Origin: Curtobacterium sp. MCPF17_052
GTDB lineage: Bacteria > Actinomycetota > Actinomycetes > Actinomycetales > Microbacteriaceae
Length of the DNA: 64,000 nucleotides
NCBI RefSeq assembly: GCF_003234085.1
Contig: NZ_QKSD01000007.1
Location: 156,776-220,775, forward strand
Direction of reading: 5' to 3'
The notes under the pieces were generated by a model. It saw only the letters and a list, made by a program, of their open reading frames with translations, was not told where the DNA came from and did not search any database. The translations under genes and the position numbers were made by a program. Every line of letters begins with the position of its first letter. Within the stretch, counting starts at the first letter, position 1. This document shows, in pieces, positions 23,958-31,534 of this stretch.

Positions 23958-24692
23958 GTGTCGGACGGTGTCGTCGTCCGCGTCCTGACCGGACGTGGGA
24001 CGCGCGCCGCCGACCGGGAGGCCCTGGTCGCCTTCGTCGCGGACGTCACCGACACCGCCGTGGCGCTGGTGCGCGTCGAGCGTCGCTGCGCGCATTGCGG
24101 GGCCGCGGACCACGGCCGACCGGCAGCCGTCGTGGACGGTCACGACATCGGTGTCAGCCTGTCGCGGACGACGGGCGTCCTCGCACTGGCCGTCGGCCCG
24201 AGCACGACCAGCCGCGCCACGACGAGTTCCGGCTCGACGAGCCCCGCCACGACCGACCCGAGCGCGATCGTCCCGAGCGCGATCGGCGTCGACGTCGAAC
24301 GCCTCTCCCGCGTCGCCGCCGCCGAGCTCGACGCCTTCACGCCGGGGGAGCGTCAGCGAGCCGGACGGTCCGGGTCCGCCGCCGTCGACCTCACCGCGTG
24401 CTGGGCCGTGAAGGAGGCCGTCCTGAAACGGGACGGTCGGGGCCTCCGTGTCGACCCGACCGAGGTCGACGTGGTGCTCGGGTGCATGACGCCGGAGTCC
24501 GTCGCTGCCGACCGGGTCACGCCCGAGTCCAGCGGGCACACCGCCCGCTTCGACGGCCTCGTGCAGCCGGTGACGGTCCTCCGGCTCGGTGACGACCTCG
24601 TGCTCGCCGTCGCGGCAGGGGGCGCCCCGGTCACGGTCCAGGACCGACGCGTCGGGCTGGTCTCCGACCGGGAGAGCGGAGAGCGCCCGTAG
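23958..24692 (+). CDS. 4'-phosphopantetheinyl transferase (Sfp-like)
   Basis: 244-aa enzyme that moves phosphopantetheine from CoA onto the Ser of carrier domains. The diagnostic motifs are IGVDVERL (about 110-117; Asp and Glu bind Mg) and WAVKEAVLKRDG (about 149-160; Lys and Glu catalytic). The N-terminal RRCAHCGAADHGRP matches the RxCxxCGxxHGxP motif of Sfp-like enzymes. About 20 Thr/Ser/Ala-rich residues before the IGVDVE motif look like a local expansion. GTG 23958 follows a GAAGG site. The window holds a carrier protein it could serve: the NRPS-like synthetase about 3-7 kb away. That link is inferred. Confidence 0.9.
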   Translation: MSDGVVVRVLTGRGTRAADREALVAFVADVTDTAVALVRVERRCAHCGAADHGRPAAVVDGHDIGVSLSRTTGVLALAVGPSTTSRATTSSGSTSPATTDPSAIVPSAIGVDVERLSRVAAAELDAFTPGERQRAGRSGSAAVDLTACWAVKEAVLKRDGRGLRVDPTEVDVVLGCMTPESVAADRVTPESSGHTARFDGLVQPVTVLRLGDDLVLAVAAGGAPVTVQDRRVGLVSDRESGERP

Positions 24693-24729: not shown

Positions 24730-25125
24730 TCAGGCGGCGGCGGCGTTCGCTGAGGAGCGACACTCCTCCGGCGGCCGACCAGCGACCGACTCCGCCGCGA
24801 TGCCGCGGAGCCGGGCGAGGCGATCACGGGTGGCGGTGAGGGCCTCGATCTGGCGTCGGATGCGATCGCTCTCCTCGTCGAAGTGGTCGAGCATCGTCGA
24901 CGTGGCGACCCCGGTGTCGAGGAAGGGCAGGAGCTCGATGATCCGGCGGCTCGGCATGCCCGCGGCGTAGAGCATCTGCATGAAGCGCACACGCGTGACG
25001 TCGGACTCGCGGTACTCCCGGTGTCCTCCTGCAGTCCGCTCGGACTCGAGGAGGCCTCGTTCCTCGTAGTACCGCAGCGACCGCACGCTGACGCCGGCCT
25101 GTTCGGCGAGTGCACCGATCCGCAT
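24730..25125 (-). CDS. MerR-family transcriptional regulator
   Basis: 131-aa regulator with an N-terminal winged helix-turn-helix (MRIGALAEQAGVSVRSLRYYEERGLL) followed by the MerR recognition segment and a dimerising coiled coil (about 80-115). It lacks a conserved Cys metal site; the single Cys is in the tail PPEECRSS. This resembles the small-molecule or stress MerR regulators rather than metal sensors. ATG 25125 faces away from the SDR gene, with a MerR-style promoter between them. It is convergent with the PPTase gene, 37 bp away. Confidence 0.92.
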   Translation of the reverse strand: MRIGALAEQAGVSVRSLRYYEERGLLESERTAGGHREYRESDVTRVRFMQMLYAAGMPSRRIIELLPFLDTGVATSTMLDHFDEESDRIRRQIEALTATRDRLARLRGIAAESVAGRPPEECRSSANAAAA

Positions 25126-25141
25126 CCTCGGCCCCCTGGGC

Positions 25142-25179: not shown

Positions 25180-25908
25180 ATGGACATCTCTGGAGCCACT
25201 GCCCTCGTCACCGGCGCGAATCGCGGGATCGGACGCCACCTCGCCGCCCAGCTGGTCGAACGCGGGGCGAAGGTGTACGCCACCGCCCGCCGGCCTGAAC
25301 TCATCGACCTCGAGGGCGTCGAGCCGCTCGCCCTCGACATCACCTCCCCGGCGTCCGTCGCAGCCGCCGCCGCTGTCGCGACCGACACCGACCTCCTGAT
25401 CAACAACGCCGGGATCGCCACCACGGCGACCCTGCTGGGTGATCTGGACGCGGCGCACGCAGACATGGACACGAACGTCTGGGGCACCCTGTCCGTGATC
25501 CGGGCGTTCGCACCCGTCCTGTCCGCGAACGGTGGTGGGAGCATCGTGAACATCGCCTCGGGCGCCTCCTGGCTGGCCATGCCGGGCGCCTCCGCCTACG
25601 CGGTGTCGAAGGCTGCCCTGTGGAACATGGGCAACGCGTTGCGCCACGAGCTGGCCGGACAGGGGACATCGGTGATGTCCGTGCACCTCGGTATCGCCGA
25701 CACGGACATGGCAGCGGGAGTCCCGCTGGCCAAGACCGACCCGGCGGACGTGGCGCGCGCGACCCTCGACGGGGTGGAGCGCGGCGTGTACGAGGTCGTG
25801 GTGGACGAGCAGACGGCGTTGGTCAAGCAGATGCTCGCCCGTGACCCCGAGGAGTTGTACGCGGTCCTGGCCCGGATGCTCGCGGGGGAGACGCGGCCCC
25901 GTGACTAG
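25180..25908 (+). CDS. Short-chain dehydrogenase/reductase
   Basis: 242-aa classical SDR. TGANRGIGRHLA (about 11-22) is the dinucleotide-binding motif, NNAGIA (about 75-80) follows, and the catalytic set is Ser in IASGASW with YAVSK. It is likely NADP-dependent because Arg residues follow beta-2 (ATARRPEL). It reduces or oxidises an unknown alcohol or carbonyl. It is driven by the MerR-type promoter upstream. Its stop (TAG) overlaps the stop of the convergent M1 peptidase gene in the shared tetranucleotide CTAG. Confidence 0.92.
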   Translation: MDISGATALVTGANRGIGRHLAAQLVERGAKVYATARRPELIDLEGVEPLALDITSPASVAAAAAVATDTDLLINNAGIATTATLLGDLDAAHADMDTNVWGTLSVIRAFAPVLSANGGGSIVNIASGASWLAMPGASAYAVSKAALWNMGNALRHELAGQGTSVMSVHLGIADTDMAAGVPLAKTDPADVARATLDGVERGVYEVVVDEQTALVKQMLARDPEELYAVLARMLAGETRPRD

Positions 25909-27221
25909 GGCAGTTCCGGCACCCCGGGCTCGTCGATCCACGGCCCGATGGCGAGCAGCACGTCCCCGGGCGTCCTGTCGGCCGCCGCGGCGAACGCCTC
26001 GACGACGTCGGTCGTCGCGACCGTTCCGTGGCGGTGCCGTTCGGTGATGGTCCGGAGCCCGGCGGTGAAGGCCTGGTCACCGATCGTCCGACGGAGGGCG
26101 TGCAGGGCGATCGCCCCACGCTTGTAGACGCGGTCGTCGAACATGTCCCGAGCGCCCGGGTCGGCGACCACCAGGTCCTGCGGCTGGTCGAGCAGGCCGG
26201 CCCGGTGCTCGGCGGCGAGCACGTCCGCCGAGGCACCGCCGCGGTGCTCGGACCAGAGCCACTCGGCGTAGCAGGCGAAGCCCTCGTGCAGCCAGATGTC
26301 CCGCCACTGCCCGAGGGTGACCGAGTTCCCGAACCACTGGTGGGCGAGTTCGTGGGCGATCAGCCGGTCGGTCCCGTGTTCGCCGTCGACGTGGTTCCGG
26401 CCGAAGACGGCCAGGCCGTGTGCCTCGAGCGGGATCTCGAGCTCGTCGTCGGTGACCACGACGCCGTACTCCGCGAACGGGTACGGGCCGAAGCGGTCGG
26501 TGAACAGGGCGATCATGTCCGGCACCCGGCCGAAGTCGGTCTTCACCGCCGCGGTCAGGTCGGCCGGGTGGTGCAGCGTGACCGGGACGTCGCCGCCGCG
26601 GATCGTCGTCGTGCGGTAGCGGCCGATCTGCACCGTGGCGAGGTACGACGCCATCGGCTCGGTGACGGCGAAGGTCCACCGGCTGCCGCGTGCGGTGCGG
26701 TCACGGCCGAGCAGCGCCCCGTTCGCGACGACGTCGTACCCGGCTTCGCAGGTGAGCTCGATCCGGTAGGTCGCCTTGTCGTTGGGCCGGTCGTTGCAGG
26801 GGAACCACGACGGCGCACCGATCGGCTGGCTGGCGACGATCACGCCGTCGGTCAGCTCCTCCCACCCGAGCGTGCCCCAGGGGCTCCGGAGTGGTCGGGG
26901 TGCGCCGCGGTAGCGGACGTGCACGGTGAACTCCGCTCCGGCGGCGATCGGCGTCGCGGGCGTGACGGTCGTCTTGTGGGTGCCGACGGAGACCTTCTTC
27001 GCGCGGACACCGTCGACGTCGACCCGGTCGACGGACAGCCCGTGCAGGTCGAGCAGGACCCGGTCGAGCGCTTCGTTCGCCACCGCCGTGAGGGTCGCGG
27101 TCGCGTCCAGGCGGTTCGTGGCGACGCGGTAGTCGAGGTGCAGGTCGTGGTGGCGGCTCGACCAGCGCCGGTCGCCGCTGTGCGGGGTGTACGGGTCGGC
27201 GGCGGGGTCGGTCTGCTTCAC
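25905..27221 (-). CDS. Compact M1-family zinc metallopeptidase
   Basis: 438-aa peptidase, about half the usual M1 length, keeping only the N-terminal beta domain and the thermolysin-like catalytic domain. The zinc site HELAHQWFG with its third ligand 18 residues after (in WLHEGFACYAE) is complete. The usual GAMEN exopeptidase motif is replaced by a region reading ELEIPLEAHGLAVFG. No signal peptide. GTG 27221 lies 8 bp after the stop of the Pls-like synthetase, so the two are co-transcribed and probably coupled. In poly-lysine producers, peptidases that cut the polymer accompany the synthetase; a similar role here (trimming or self-protection) is inference. Confidence 0.9.
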   Translation of the reverse strand: MKQTDPAADPYTPHSGDRRWSSRHHDLHLDYRVATNRLDATATLTAVANEALDRVLLDLHGLSVDRVDVDGVRAKKVSVGTHKTTVTPATPIAAGAEFTVHVRYRGAPRPLRSPWGTLGWEELTDGVIVASQPIGAPSWFPCNDRPNDKATYRIELTCEAGYDVVANGALLGRDRTARGSRWTFAVTEPMASYLATVQIGRYRTTTIRGGDVPVTLHHPADLTAAVKTDFGRVPDMIALFTDRFGPYPFAEYGVVVTDDELEIPLEAHGLAVFGRNHVDGEHGTDRLIAHELAHQWFGNSVTLGQWRDIWLHEGFACYAEWLWSEHRGGASADVLAAEHRAGLLDQPQDLVVADPGARDMFDDRVYKRGAIALHALRRTIGDQAFTAGLRTITERHRHGTVATTDVVEAFAAAADRTPGDVLLAIGPWIDEPGVPELP

Positions 27222-27229
27222 GGTGCCGG

Positions 27230-30200
27230 TCAGTCTGTCACGGCCCCGGGGGCGTCACGCCACGGCGGGCGTCCCCACGGCGCGATCGGGTTGCCGGCCC
27301 AGAGCGTCCCGGCGGGGACCTGCTCGCCGCGCATGACGAGGCTCGCCGGCCCGACGGTCGCACCGGGGCCGATGCCGGCGGCGGGCAGGACGACGCCGTG
27401 GGGGCCGAGCGTCGACCCCGCGTCGAGGGTGACGGCGTCGAGCTGCATGACGCGGTCGTGGAACAGGTGGGTCTGGACGACGGTGCCGCGGGCGACCGTC
27501 GCGCCGTCGCCGATCGTGACGAGGTCCGCCTCGGGCAGCCAGTACGTCTCGCACCACACGCCGCGGCCGATCGTCGCGCCGAGACTCCGCAGCCAGACGG
27601 ACAGGGCAGGCGTGCCGATGGCCTGCTCGGCGAACCAGGGACGGGCGACGGTCTCGACGAAGGTGTCCTGCACCTCGTTGCGCCAGACGAACGAGGACCA
27701 CAGCGGGTGCTCGGTCGCGGTGATCCGACCGACGAAGGCCCACTTCGCCAGGGTCGACACGGCCGCGGCCACCGCTCCGGCGACGATGAGCACTGGGCCG
27801 GCGAGCAGCACCGTCCACCCGATGCCGACGGCGCTCCAGGACGCCAGGAGCGTCAACGCGACGCCGAGGGCGATGGCGGCGGACACCATCGGGGCGAGCA
27901 GACGCAGCAGCTCCCACGCGCCGCGGGCGACCTTGAGGCGGGTCGGCGGCCGGAAGGTGCGCTCCTCGTCGAACTGCGCGGCGGCCCGGCGCAGGCGGAC
28001 CGGCGGGCTGCCGAGCCAGGACGACCCTCGCTTGGCCTTCTTCGGCACGGCCGAGAGCACCGCGACGAGTGCCTCGCGGGGGACCGAGCGACCGGCACCG
28101 GTCATGCCCGAGTTGCCGAGGAACGCCCGACGTCCGACCTTCGAGCGGCCGATCTTCACCCGTCCACCGCCGAGTTCGTACGTGGCGACCATCGTGTCGT
28201 CGGCCAGGAACGCACCCGAAGCGATCTGCGTCAGCGCGGGGATGAGCAGCACGGTGGAGATCTCGGTGTCCCGACCGACCTGCGCACCGAGCAGCCGGAG
28301 CCACAGCGGCGTGACGAGGCTCGCGTACAGCGGGAACAGCAGCGTCCGGGCGGCGTCGAGGATCCGCTCTGTGCTCCACACCTGCCACCCGGTCCGGGAG
28401 CGCACCGGGTGTCGTCCCTCGACCAGTCCGAGTCCGAGGAGCCGGACCGCGGCGACGACGAGTCCCGCGTACACGACGCCGGCGACGACCGTGCCGAGCG
28501 GGACGGCGACCAAGGCCGGACCCACCACGGCGTCGAGCGAGTCCGGACGCCCGACCACCGCGGCGACGACGGCGAGCCCGGCGGCGACCCCGACCACGGG
28601 GAGCCCGGCGACGGCGACGGAGCCGACCCCGTACGCGAGCAGCCAGCGTCTCGGGGAGGCGGGGCGCGCCTCCCGGCCGTGGCGTGCCGAGCCGACGCGT
28701 CCGGCGGGAGAACCAGCCCACCGTTCGCCGTCGGGGACGGGCCCGGCGACAGCGGAACCGGCCTCGACCTCGGCGCCGGCACCGACGTGGGCGCCGGGCA
28801 TCAGCGTCGAGCGGCTGTGCACGACCGCGTCCGCTCCGACGTGCACCCGGCCGAGCCGGAAGACGTCGCCGTCCACCCAGTGCCCGGCGAGGTCCACCTC
28901 GGGTTCGACCGAGGCCCGCTTGCCGATCGTGAGCATGCCGGTCACGGGCGGCAGCGTGTGCAGGTCGACGCCGCGACCGACGGTCGCGCCGAGTGCGCGG
29001 GCGTAGTAGCTGATCCACGGCGCGCCCGCCGTGGAGGGACCGTCCACCGCCTCGGCGATCCGCTCGGCGAGCCAGACCCGCACGTGCACCGACCCACCAC
29101 GGGGATGGTCGCCCGGACGGACGCCGGCCAGCAGCAGACGGGCCGCGACGACCGTGAGCGTCATCTTGCCCGCGGGGCTGACGAACAGCAGGAGACCGAC
29201 CACGAGCGCCGGCCAGGGCAGCACGGGCAGGAACGGCATGGTCGTGGCGTGCAGGACCTGTGCGACCAGCGCCGTCCAGCTGAGCAGCCGCAGTCCGCGG
29301 AGCACCTGGAGCGGCAGCCCGAGGAGGGTCAGCAGCGCACCGGTCGCGGGCGGGACCGGCACGACGTCACGGCGGACCGCGGCGACCGGACCGGACTCGT
29401 CCAGCGCGTCCGCCAGTGCACCGATGCGCGGATGGTCGTACACGTCGGCGACGGTCGTCGTCGGGTACCGCTCGCGGATCGCGGAGACCAGCTGCGCAGC
29501 GGTCAACGAGCCGCCACCGTGCGCGAAGAAGTCGTCGTCGACGTCCGCGACGGGCACGCCGAGGATCGCGGACCACCGTTCGGCGATCCACGCGACGGTC
29601 GGCGGCAGGTCGGTGCCGGTCACACCCTCGAGCGGCCAGGGGAGGGCCGCCCGGTCGACCTTGCCCGACGTGCGCGTCGGCAGGACGTCGACCACGGCCA
29701 GGAGCGGCACGAGCGCGGCGGGCAGCTCCTGTCGCAGTCGCTCGTTCGCCGCGGCCGTGTCGATGGACGCGCCGGCGACCGGTGCCACGTACCCGACGAG
29801 CACCTGGTTGCCGGCAGGGGTCCGCTGCACCACGGCAGCACCACCCGCGACTCCGTCGAGCGCCTGGAGCGCGGCGTCGATCTCGCCGAGTTCGATGCGC
29901 CGCCCACCGAGCTTCACCTGGTCGTCCGCACGACCCTGGAAGACGAGCCCCTCCGGGTCGTAGCGGACCAGGTCGCCGGACCGGTACGCCCGCGCCCACC
30001 CGAGGGTCGGGAACGGCGCGTACTTCTCCGCGTCCTTCGCCGGGTCGAGGTAACGGCCGAGCCCGACACCCCCGATGACGAGCTCACCCACCTGCCCCGG
30101 CGCGACCCGCTGCCCCTCGGCGTCCACGACGGCCAGGTCCCACCCGTCGAGCGGCAGCCCGATCCGGATCGGGGTGCTGCCGTCGAGCAGGGCCCCGCAC

Positions 30201-31117
30201 GCGACGACCGTGGCCTCGGTCGGCCCGTAGGTGTTCCAGACCTCCCGGTCCCGCGACGCGATGCGGGCGGCGAGCTCGGGCGGGCACGCCTCACCGCCGA
30301 AGACCACCAGACGCACGGACGCCAACGCGTCGTCCGGCCACAGCGCCGCGAGCGTCGGGACCGTCGACACGACGGTGATCCCGTCCGCGATGAGCCACGG
30401 CCCGAGGTCCACACCGCTCTTCACCAACGACCGGGGCGCCGGGACCAGGCAGGCGCCGTGCCCCCAGGCCAGCCACATCTCCTCACACGACGCGTCGAAC
30501 GCGACACTGAGCCCGGCGAGCACCCGGTCCGCCGGACCGAGCGGAGCGGCCTGCAAGAACATCCGCGCCTCGGCGTCGACGAACGCGGCAGCGGAGCGGT
30601 GGGTGACGGCGACGCCCTTCGGCACCCCCGTGGACCCGGAGGTGAAGATGACCCACGCGTCGTCGTCGGTGGACGGGGGTTCGGCGCTCGCCGTGGGGTC
30701 GGTGACCGGCAGGGCTGCGCCGTCGCGGTCGCGGAGCACCCCGCCTGCCCCGATGACGCCGACGACACCGGCCTCACCGAAGACGAGGGTGGCGCGTTCC
30801 TCGGGGTCGTCGGCGTCGACGGGGACGTAGGCGGCACCGGCGGCGAGGACGGCGAGGATCGAGAGCGAGAGGTCGCGGCCGCCGGAGGGGATGCGGATGC
30901 CGACCCGGTCGCCGCGGCGGACGCCGTGCCGTGCCAGGTCGTCGGCGCCCTCGTGCACGAGGGCGACGAGCGCGCGGTAGTCGAGCGGCCCCTCGGGCGT
31001 CTCGAGGGCCAGGGCGTCAGGGAGCGTCGCGGCGGTGGCAGCGAGGACGTCGAGCAGGGTCCGGGCGGGTGCCGCGAGGCTGCCCCGGTCGAGTTCCCGC
31101 TGCGTGGAGTGCGTCAC
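27230..31117 (-). CDS. Pls-type membrane NRPS-like synthetase (epsilon-poly-L-lysine synthetase family)
   Basis: 1295-aa single-module enzyme. Order: adenylation domain (about 25-500; VIFTSGSTGVPKG, NTYGPTEATVV, YRSGDLVRY, Lys in TRTSGKVDRA); carrier domain with the phosphopantetheine Ser in FFAHGGGSLTAAQ (about 536); then three pairs of membrane segments (about 590-660, 820-900, 1072-1125), each followed by a soluble domain with hexapeptide-repeat-like stretches. This A-T-6TM-3-domain layout and length match Pls, which makes epsilon-poly-L-lysine (Streptomyces enzyme 1319 aa). No condensation or thioesterase domain is seen. The A-domain pocket has Glu at the 239 position (FDASCEEMW), suiting a cationic amino acid. 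GTG 31117 is chosen because a TAGGAT -10 ends 8 nt upstream. Confidence 0.9.
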   Translation of the reverse strand: MTHSTQRELDRGSLAAPARTLLDVLAATAATLPDALALETPEGPLDYRALVALVHEGADDLARHGVRRGDRVGIRIPSGGRDLSLSILAVLAAGAAYVPVDADDPEERATLVFGEAGVVGVIGAGGVLRDRDGAALPVTDPTASAEPPSTDDDAWVIFTSGSTGVPKGVAVTHRSAAAFVDAEARMFLQAAPLGPADRVLAGLSVAFDASCEEMWLAWGHGACLVPAPRSLVKSGVDLGPWLIADGITVVSTVPTLAALWPDDALASVRLVVFGGEACPPELAARIASRDREVWNTYGPTEATVVACGALLDGSTPIRIGLPLDGWDLAVVDAEGQRVAPGQVGELVIGGVGLGRYLDPAKDAEKYAPFPTLGWARAYRSGDLVRYDPEGLVFQGRADDQVKLGGRRIELGEIDAALQALDGVAGGAAVVQRTPAGNQVLVGYVAPVAGASIDTAAANERLRQELPAALVPLLAVVDVLPTRTSGKVDRAALPWPLEGVTGTDLPPTVAWIAERWSAILGVPVADVDDDFFAHGGGSLTAAQLVSAIRERYPTTTVADVYDHPRIGALADALDESGPVAAVRRDVVPVPPATGALLTLLGLPLQVLRGLRLLSWTALVAQVLHATTMPFLPVLPWPALVVGLLLFVSPAGKMTLTVVAARLLLAGVRPGDHPRGGSVHVRVWLAERIAEAVDGPSTAGAPWISYYARALGATVGRGVDLHTLPPVTGMLTIGKRASVEPEVDLAGHWVDGDVFRLGRVHVGADAVVHSRSTLMPGAHVGAGAEVEAGSAVAGPVPDGERWAGSPAGRVGSARHGREARPASPRRWLLAYGVGSVAVAGLPVVGVAAGLAVVAAVVGRPDSLDAVVGPALVAVPLGTVVAGVVYAGLVVAAVRLLGLGLVEGRHPVRSRTGWQVWSTERILDAARTLLFPLYASLVTPLWLRLLGAQVGRDTEISTVLLIPALTQIASGAFLADDTMVATYELGGGRVKIGRSKVGRRAFLGNSGMTGAGRSVPREALVAVLSAVPKKAKRGSSWLGSPPVRLRRAAAQFDEERTFRPPTRLKVARGAWELLRLLAPMVSAAIALGVALTLLASWSAVGIGWTVLLAGPVLIVAGAVAAAVSTLAKWAFVGRITATEHPLWSSFVWRNEVQDTFVETVARPWFAEQAIGTPALSVWLRSLGATIGRGVWCETYWLPEADLVTIGDGATVARGTVVQTHLFHDRVMQLDAVTLDAGSTLGPHGVVLPAAGIGPGATVGPASLVMRGEQVPAGTLWAGNPIAPWGRPPWRDAPGAVTD
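28654..28674. repeat. GGGAGGCG hairpin inside the synthetase gene
   Basis: GGGAGGCG and CGCCTCCC, separated by 5 nt, form an inverted repeat resembling the arms of the REP-like hairpins at 7363 and 31624. It encodes part of the linker (REARPASPRR) between the first soluble domain and the second membrane pair of the synthetase. Confidence 0.45.
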
Positions 31118-31125
31118 GCCGCGTG

Positions 31126-31131
31126 ATCCTA
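31126..31131 (-). promoter_or_regulatory. -10 hexamer TAGGAT, leaderless promoter of the Pls-like gene
   Basis: Read on the minus strand, TAGGAT ends 8 nt before GTG 31117. The same hexamer with the same 8-nt gap precedes lysA (34871). A hairpin CCGAGG-N6-CCTCGG (31138-31155) lies upstream, where the -35 should be; no consensus -35 is seen. Confidence 0.58.
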
Positions 31132-31175
31132 GGGCCCCGAGGTGTCCTCCTCGGAAACAGCGGTGACGCTCACCC

Positions 31176-31385
31176 GTCGGAGTCGCCACGAAGAGTTGCG
31201 TGAACCTGTCGGAGTCGTCACGACGAGGTGCGTCACCCTGTCGGAGTCGTCACGACGAGGTGCGCCGACCCACCGGGGTCGCCACGACGAGGTGCGCCGA
31301 CCCACCGGGGTCGCCACGACGAGGTGCGCCGCCCCACCGGGGTCGCCACGACGAGGTGCGCCGCCCCACCGGGGTCGCCACGGGT
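31176..31385. repeat. 32-bp minisatellite, six full copies plus a partial one
   Basis: Head-to-tail 32-bp units start at 31176, 31208, 31240, 31272, 31304, 31336 and 31368 (last one partial). Each keeps GTCG-N3-CGAC followed by GAGGTGCG. Units nearest the tRNA (31272 on) are nearly identical; those nearer the synthetase differ more (GTCGGAGTCG instead of ACCGGGGTCG). With 32 bp not divisible by 3, the array shifts frame at every copy and is not coding. There are no spacers, so it is not CRISPR. It fills the 345-bp gap between the synthetase start and tRNA-Arg, about 45 bp upstream of the -10. Confidence 0.9.
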
Positions 31386-31462
31386 GATCAGTCGGCGAAG
31401 CCGACATCGCGCGCTGCCGACCGAGCGCAGCGAGGACGTCAGCTTGCGCGGGGATTTCACTG

Positions 31463-31534
31463 TGCCCCCAGGAGGATTCGAACCTCCGCCCCTGCCTCCG
31501 GAGGGCAGTGCTCTATCCCCTGAGCTATGGGGGC
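31463..31534 (-). tRNA. tRNA-Arg (anticodon CCG)
   Basis: Full cloverleaf on the minus strand: acceptor GCCCCCA pairs with TGGGGGC, the D-arm reads TAGCTCAGGGGATAGAGCA, anticodon stem CTGCC/GGCAG holds the loop CTCCGGA (anticodon CCG, codon CGG), and the T-arm reads GGAGG-TTCGAAT-CCTCC. The discriminator is A. The 3' CCA is not encoded. It lies 3' of the minisatellite array and could in principle serve as an integration site, but no integrase is seen. Confidence 0.95.

Follow-up and report, generated by a model that had tools for sequence, protein, structure and literature searches.

What polymer, if any, might a Curtobacterium strain make with a synthetase that resembles the epsilon-poly-L-lysine synthetase (Pls) of Streptomyces albulus, and which neighboring genes would control it? 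The question is posed by a stretch of 64,000 nucleotides, called the window here, from contig NZ_QKSD01000007.1 of Curtobacterium sp. MCPF17_052. On its minus strand, the gene pls (27230..31117) encodes a non-ribosomal synthetase of 1295 residues, and a gene encoding a compact M1 metallopeptidase of 438 residues, PldII-like by position (25905..27221), starts 8 bp past the synthetase stop on the same strand. An initial annotation had placed both genes and their spacing correctly, as judged by an open reading frame check. It did not include a third gene, on the plus strand, that encodes a 4'-phosphopantetheinyl transferase (PPTase; 23958..24692, start codon uncertain) and is convergent to the pls–peptidase pair. 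From sequence, structural modeling, and analogy to known systems, we consider it very probable that the locus makes and controls a cationic polymer of the epsilon-poly-L-lysine type. The pls–peptidase pair is already known in many actinobacteria; the new detail is the linked, co-occurring PPTase.

By its predicted architecture, the product of pls is a Pls-type synthetase. Specifically, an adenylation (A) domain (residues 19-496; 29630..31063) is followed by a carrier, or thiolation, domain (29402..29590; PF00550, E 3.9e-13) that bears the phosphopantetheine serine, Ser537, in the motif GGGSL, and by a C-terminal polymerization domain (27284..29329) with three predicted membrane hairpins and a beta-helix stretch after each, all on the minus strand. 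The C-terminal region matches TIGR02353, the Pls/PosA C-terminal domain, at 678 bits against a cut-off of 423.1. The only Pfam matches at E <= 0.01 are PF00501, PF00550, and a sub-threshold PF00132 (hexapeptide repeat); as the initial annotation had stated, this search returned neither a thioesterase nor a standard condensation domain. An AlphaFold2 model of the last 715 residues, built from an alignment of the window protein with those of 24 of 80 fetched loci (mean pLDDT 82.7, pTM 0.86), places helices at model residues 10-82, 243-315, and 479-549, with a predicted beta-helix stretch after each group. TIGR02353, hydrophobicity, and the model together give six membrane helices in three pairs plus three soluble domains, which bears out the full Pls architecture claimed at the outset, and with it the check on the soluble domains that had been proposed. 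A Foldseek search with the model returned hexapeptide acyltransferases, 18 of them at E <= 0.001 (best 1.6e-4); these matches cover parts of the model only, with query TM-scores of 0.09-0.14. The same arrangement, with three hairpin and beta-helix units, has been modeled for PosA, the delta-poly-L-ornithine synthetase, which shares the order of A domain, carrier domain, and membrane beta-helix region with the window protein (PMC10522769).

Lysine is the best substrate inference for this synthetase. The closest Protein Data Bank (PDB) match is 7WEW, the S. albulus epsilon-poly-L-lysine synthase (E 3e-186), and identity to its chain A is 66% over 482 columns. With pocket residues located through the A-domain core motifs, at what we take to be the GrsA position numbers, the window code reads DAESVFTVVK, in agreement with the initial annotation. 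The S. albulus code, read the same way, is DAESLVTVVK, equal at 8 of 10 positions. Among the 80 best of at least 583 confirmed matches of a genome scan, 60 carry DAESLFTVVK and 11 carry DAESVFTVVK; the remaining nine show single-letter differences or an incomplete pattern reading, with one (L045) unread through a start artifact. The initial annotation had also called for a check on A-domain grouping. A tree of A domains from the window, 7WEW, 22 of the 80 fetched loci, and 10 others (34 in all) has a 100/99 split that sets four diverged paralogs apart from the remaining 30 rows. The window falls among these 30, with S. albulus and other actinobacterial Pls proteins and not with non-basic substrates; many inner forks within the 30 do not resolve. 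Pocket position 2 has been proposed to set substrate length: Pls has Ala there, the ornithine enzyme has Met, and enzymes for diaminopropionate (Dap) or diaminobutyrate (Dab) have Phe (PMC10522769); the PosA pocket, DMEHNGTVSK, indeed has Met there, unlike the window's Ala. Sequence thus supports the basic substrate that had been suggested and, because of the A-domain identity, the grouping with S. albulus Pls, and the Ala at position 2, makes lysine preferable to ornithine or Dab.

The peptidase carries PF01433 and PF17900, and its best PDB sequence match is 6A8Z, a zinc metalloprotease. Its HEXXH-18-E motif is intact, as it is in 80/80 fetched relatives. In an alignment of 81 sequences, at least 97.5% retain each of H290, E291, H294, E313, E266, and Y366. 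Of these residues, E266 and Y366 are presumably the amino-end Glu and the catalytic Tyr of M1 enzymes. A co-oriented peptidase match lies downstream of pls, up to ~2.2 kb away, in all 80 fetched relatives, a figure that describes near relatives since the loci were picked for likeness to the synthetase. A Kyte-Doolittle scan of the window peptidase finds no hydrophobic segment, and no start codon precedes GTG 27221 in the frame. A signal peptide is therefore unlikely, which suggests a cytosolic enzyme, though it may be exported by other means. In S. albulus, translation of PldII is reportedly coupled to that of pls, and repression of PldII leads to longer polymer chains and lower tolerance (PMC9223678). 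The early suggestion that the peptidase may trim the polymer or protect its host finds support in the sequence.

The PPTase gene product matches PF01648 at 36.6 bits against a cut-off of 25. D112, W149, E153, A154, and K157 are invariant in 20 aligned sequences; we take these residues to be the meaningful ones and the enzyme to be of the Sfp type. In an iterated profile search, a PPTase lies on the opposite strand within ~1.2 kb of the peptidase end in 30 of the 80 loci. These loci come from Curtobacterium, Cryobacterium, Compostimonas, Microbacterium, Rhodoglobus, Plantibacter, and other Microbacteriaceae, as well as from Arthrobacter and its kin, Kocuria, and Humibacillus, all of which we take to be Micrococcales. 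No PPTase was found in flanks of up to 6 kb in Rhodococcus, Nocardia, Mycobacterium, or the other loci, with the fetched sequence of L016 and L061 ending within ~0.5 kb of the peptidase. A profile made from the window and 19 of the 30 loci was used for wider counts. These PPTase searches scored part of the first-look candidates (18/78, 41/105, and 13/78 in the window genome), and some absences may be misses. In the window assembly, which is 76.6% complete, the PPTase matches are this gene and a short one of AcpS size only, and besides Pls the only carrier match is a fatty-acid-type acyl carrier protein (ACP) between FabH- and FabF-like genes (named by eye).

Across 66 Curtobacterium genomes, the three genes tend to be present or absent together. 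Pls scores above the cut-off in 59, and at a threshold of E 1e-40 the peptidase is found in the same 59, in every case within 500 bp downstream of Pls. A convergent PPTase follows 1.4-5.7 kb downstream in 57 of the 59; in one of the two others, G170, the contig ends inside the peptidase. Four Pls-less genomes (G151, G171, G189, and G190) are at least 99% complete and retain argS, a lipoprotein gene, tRNA-Arg(CCG), and a small conserved gene in the window's order, and Pls, peptidase, and PPTase are all absent from the corresponding stretch. G158 (65% complete) and G212 (73% complete) are uninformative and were not counted as losses. G208 was considered as a Pls-less genome with a broken PPTase, a reading rejected when argS was not found either; a gap in the assembly probably covers its locus, and this genome, too, was not counted. 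The idea that Pls is the sole PPTase client across the genus was likewise not upheld, given that 56/66 genomes have three or more carrier matches. In G186, G187, G203, and G163, a PPTase match lies within ~10 kb of a frame that exceeds 3500 codons and has several carrier domains. This frame probably encodes a multimodular non-ribosomal peptide synthetase (NRPS), with the PPTase as its own activator.

The association extends to the family and the order. Of 150 Microbacteriaceae genomes, 59 have Pls above the cut-off and 67 have a PPTase profile match: 59/59 with Pls against 8/91 without (Fisher p = 2e-33, ignoring shared ancestry). For 50 of the 61 Pls copies, the PPTase lies 1.3-2.7 kb downstream of the Pls domain, always convergent (50/50). 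For four of the other 11 copies, a PPTase lies upstream at a distance of up to 5 kb; four more belong to G071 and G134, with two copies each, where the PPTase is 7-10 kb from a diverged copy. The last three (in G007, G052, and G090) have it elsewhere, the G052 contig ending 2 kb past Pls. By a reading of the lists, the PPTase tracks Pls in 10 of 13 genera with mixed Pls presence, and in the other three it occurs without Pls (in G014, G135, and, as a weak match, G130). In a sample of 198 genomes of the order, a PPTase match is found in 57 of 59 genomes with Pls (62 copies) versus 37 of 139 without. It lies downstream within 6 kb of 32/62 copies, 30/32 convergent, and in one family, with 11 Pls copies, it is never in the downstream place.

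How do these genes compare with known systems? The S. albulus Pls/PldII pair resembles that of the window in domain order and in having the peptidase directly downstream of pls in the same direction; the junction is an 8-bp gap in the window versus a 4-bp overlap in S. albulus (PMC4361855). A pls–peptidase operon was reported in 2021 from Corynebacterium variabile, and its pls yields epsilon-poly-L-lysine when placed in Streptomyces coelicolor (PMC8117764). This is the same pair as in the window, outside Streptomyces, but in another family, and the accessible account mentions no PPTase. Homologs of pls are also noted in Microbacterium, Arthrobacter, Brevibacterium, and others (PMC8117764). For PosA, the text of PMC10522769 mentions no peptidase. 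Epsilon-poly-L-lysine clusters with the same synthetase architecture as the window have been reported in Agrococcus, Microbacterium, and Leifsonia (PMC12067966), and the accessible part of that paper does not name its Curtobacterium species as a cluster holder. Similarly, the accessible part of PMC10456417 lists NRPS-like but no non-alpha poly-amino acid (NAPAA) clusters for its Curtobacterium strain. Because PMC8117764 and PMC12067966 already report such loci, the initial annotation's estimate that the pair is little studied outside Streptomyces relatives is not sustained. Within the literature accessible to our search, we found no report linking a PPTase gene to pls and none of a pls locus in Curtobacterium. 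Agrococcus, Microbacterium, and Leifsonia, we presume, belong to the same family as the window, the Microbacteriaceae.

Alongside the direct observations, namely the gene anatomy, the homology, the conserved active-site residues, and the joint presence or absence across Curtobacterium, we propose a mechanism in four steps. The PPTase would load the phosphopantetheine arm onto Ser537 of the Pls carrier, the least certain step, suggested by gene linkage. The A domain would adenylate L-lysine and pass it to the arm, as the similarity to S. albulus and the pocket indicate. The membrane-embedded beta-helix domains, going by the family, would link lysines through their epsilon-amino groups into a polymer tens of residues long, which they would then release. 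Finally, the co-oriented PldII-like M1 peptidase, on the precedent of S. albulus PldII, would degrade the polymer, both to protect the cell and to set chain length.

Several observations weigh against this proposal. Epsilon-polylysine was not detected in native C. variabile or in Corynebacterium glutamicum expressing its Pls (PMC8117764); such loci can therefore be silent. PldII is reported to lie outside the membrane (PMC9223678), yet the window peptidase has no hydrophobic segment. In the order, 27/59 Pls genomes have no PPTase in the downstream place, and 2/59 have no PPTase match at all. Within Curtobacterium, G186 has Pls without a nearby PPTase; its only match sits on a different contig, close to a frame in which several carrier domains are found. 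Finally, the window pocket departs from that of S. albulus at 299 (V for L) and 301 (F for V), and family members use several diamino acids (PMC10522769), as would suit a Pls-like synthetase that polymerizes a different basic amino acid such as ornithine, diaminobutyrate, or beta-lysine. F301 loses weight as a sign of another substrate since most of the 80 relatives share it, in one of two codes. The Ala at position 2 is the Pls-type residue, the A domain is close to and groups with S. albulus Pls, and an adjoining peptidase gene is typical of pls and not of Dap/Dab synthetases (PMC8117764); we consider a substrate other than lysine unlikely. That the peptidase is a housekeeping aminopeptidase merely sitting in the operon strikes us as very improbable. 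M1 aminopeptidases are common and broad, the best 120 of 7815 relatives carry general names (for example, M1 family metallopeptidase or aminopeptidase N), and a single deletion could have removed it together with pls; on the other side, the peptidase is missing in exactly the 7/66 Pls-less Curtobacterium genomes, three of them uninformative, and is kept downstream in all 80 fetched relatives.

The role of the PPTase is harder to judge. The hypothesis is that Micrococcales carry a self-contained unit of pls, a pldII-type peptidase, and a dedicated PPTase, in which the PPTase would be the on switch for a synthetase with a self-toxic product. We advance this tentatively, as an idea somewhat less likely than not. 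Alternatively, the PPTase could be an Sfp-type enzyme of general use that has stayed in the neighborhood through descent and has no particular link to Pls, an account that we regard as a real possibility, if a somewhat doubtful one. One deletion can remove adjacent genes and could explain the joint absence in Curtobacterium, and the Pls-less family and order genomes with a PPTase fit the same account. In the family, only G007, G052, and G090 have a PPTase clear of any Pls copy, so most of the co-occurrence there is also adjacency; the two Pls genomes of the order without a match add to this side, with the caveat that partial candidate scoring may have produced misses. For the order, adjacency is not a sufficient explanation of the co-occurrence, since 25 of the 27 Pls genomes that lack a downstream PPTase have a match elsewhere, versus 37/139 of Pls-less genomes; 10 of those 25 come from the family in which the PPTase is never in the downstream place. 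Moreover, Pls-less G171, G189, and G190 keep other carrier-domain proteins yet have no PPTase match, which favors a tie to Pls, and the sole other carrier match in the window assembly is, by eye, the fatty-acid-type ACP. If the PPTase is dedicated to Pls, the lack of a fitting PPTase could be one reason why C. variabile Pls, although expressed, gave no polymer in C. glutamicum but did so in S. coelicolor. This hypothesis concerns fit and not absence because C. glutamicum, included as a control genome, has PF01648 matches of its own.

The surroundings of the three genes are as follows. Between the PPTase and the peptidase lie a MerR-type regulator (24730..25130, minus strand, start estimated; PF13411) and a short-chain dehydrogenase (25180..25908, plus strand, start estimated; PF00106) that is convergent to the peptidase and overlaps its end by 4 bp. 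Upstream, the synthetase frame runs over 27230-31189 on the minus strand, and the 1295-residue reading begins at GTG 31117. A start at 31189 (1319 residues) was rejected because a promoter-like stretch (31118..31158, minus strand, by eye) falls between the two; its TAGGAT ends 8 nt before GTG 31117, which makes the latter the better start. TAGGA is present in 8 of 13 upstream rows compared by eye (the window, L001-L006, and L009) and not in the compared stretch of L007, L008, L010, L011, and L021. A repeat search revealed a 32-bp tandem repeat of ~6.6 copies with 91% matches (31172..31382, no strand assigned) between pls and tRNA-Arg(CCG) at 31462-31534, and no further copy, allowing up to 3 mismatches, elsewhere in the window. 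The closest named relatives are from Curtobacterium: the peptidase shares 99% identity with one of an unclassified Curtobacterium, and the synthetase shares 95% with one of Curtobacterium sp. MCLR17_032.

Other Pls-like genes surfaced as well. G071 (locus L092) and G134 (L094) each have, besides a normal pls–peptidase pair, a second, diverged Pls-like synthetase with ~30% identity to the window protein (36-37% in the A domain). The FDAS pocket pattern was not found in these two proteins, nor was a peptidase relative in the fetched stretch, and they may make another polymer. Extra Pls-like loci that match the carrier/C-terminal region (L096, L097, L099, and L100) occur in G363 and G217, which belong to another family and also hold a normal pair; L097 and L099 show a separate A-domain match as well. 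Among 14 control genomes, C. glutamicum alone exceeds the TIGR02353 cut-off. Pls relatives are also found in 25 plasmid records, 13 of them typed mobilizable or conjugative, with Rhodococcus, Kitasatospora, Streptomyces, and Mycobacterium avium/intracellulare as hosts among the matches listed. In the plasmid record of Kitasatospora sp. NBC_00039, pls is followed by an M1 peptidase. In the incomplete gene tables, none is annotated after pls in pROB01 of Rhodococcus opacus, and no PPTase is annotated within 5 kb of pls in either record.

Curtobacterium is a plant-associated genus, and 59 of its 66 sampled genomes carry pls; genes of this type underlie a polymer in wide use as a preservative. The core pls–peptidase finding is already understood, and the PPTase is a modest, testable extension of it. 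From the practical side, co-expression of the linked PPTase offers an inexpensive hypothesis on how to activate pls genes that are silent in non-filamentous actinobacteria.

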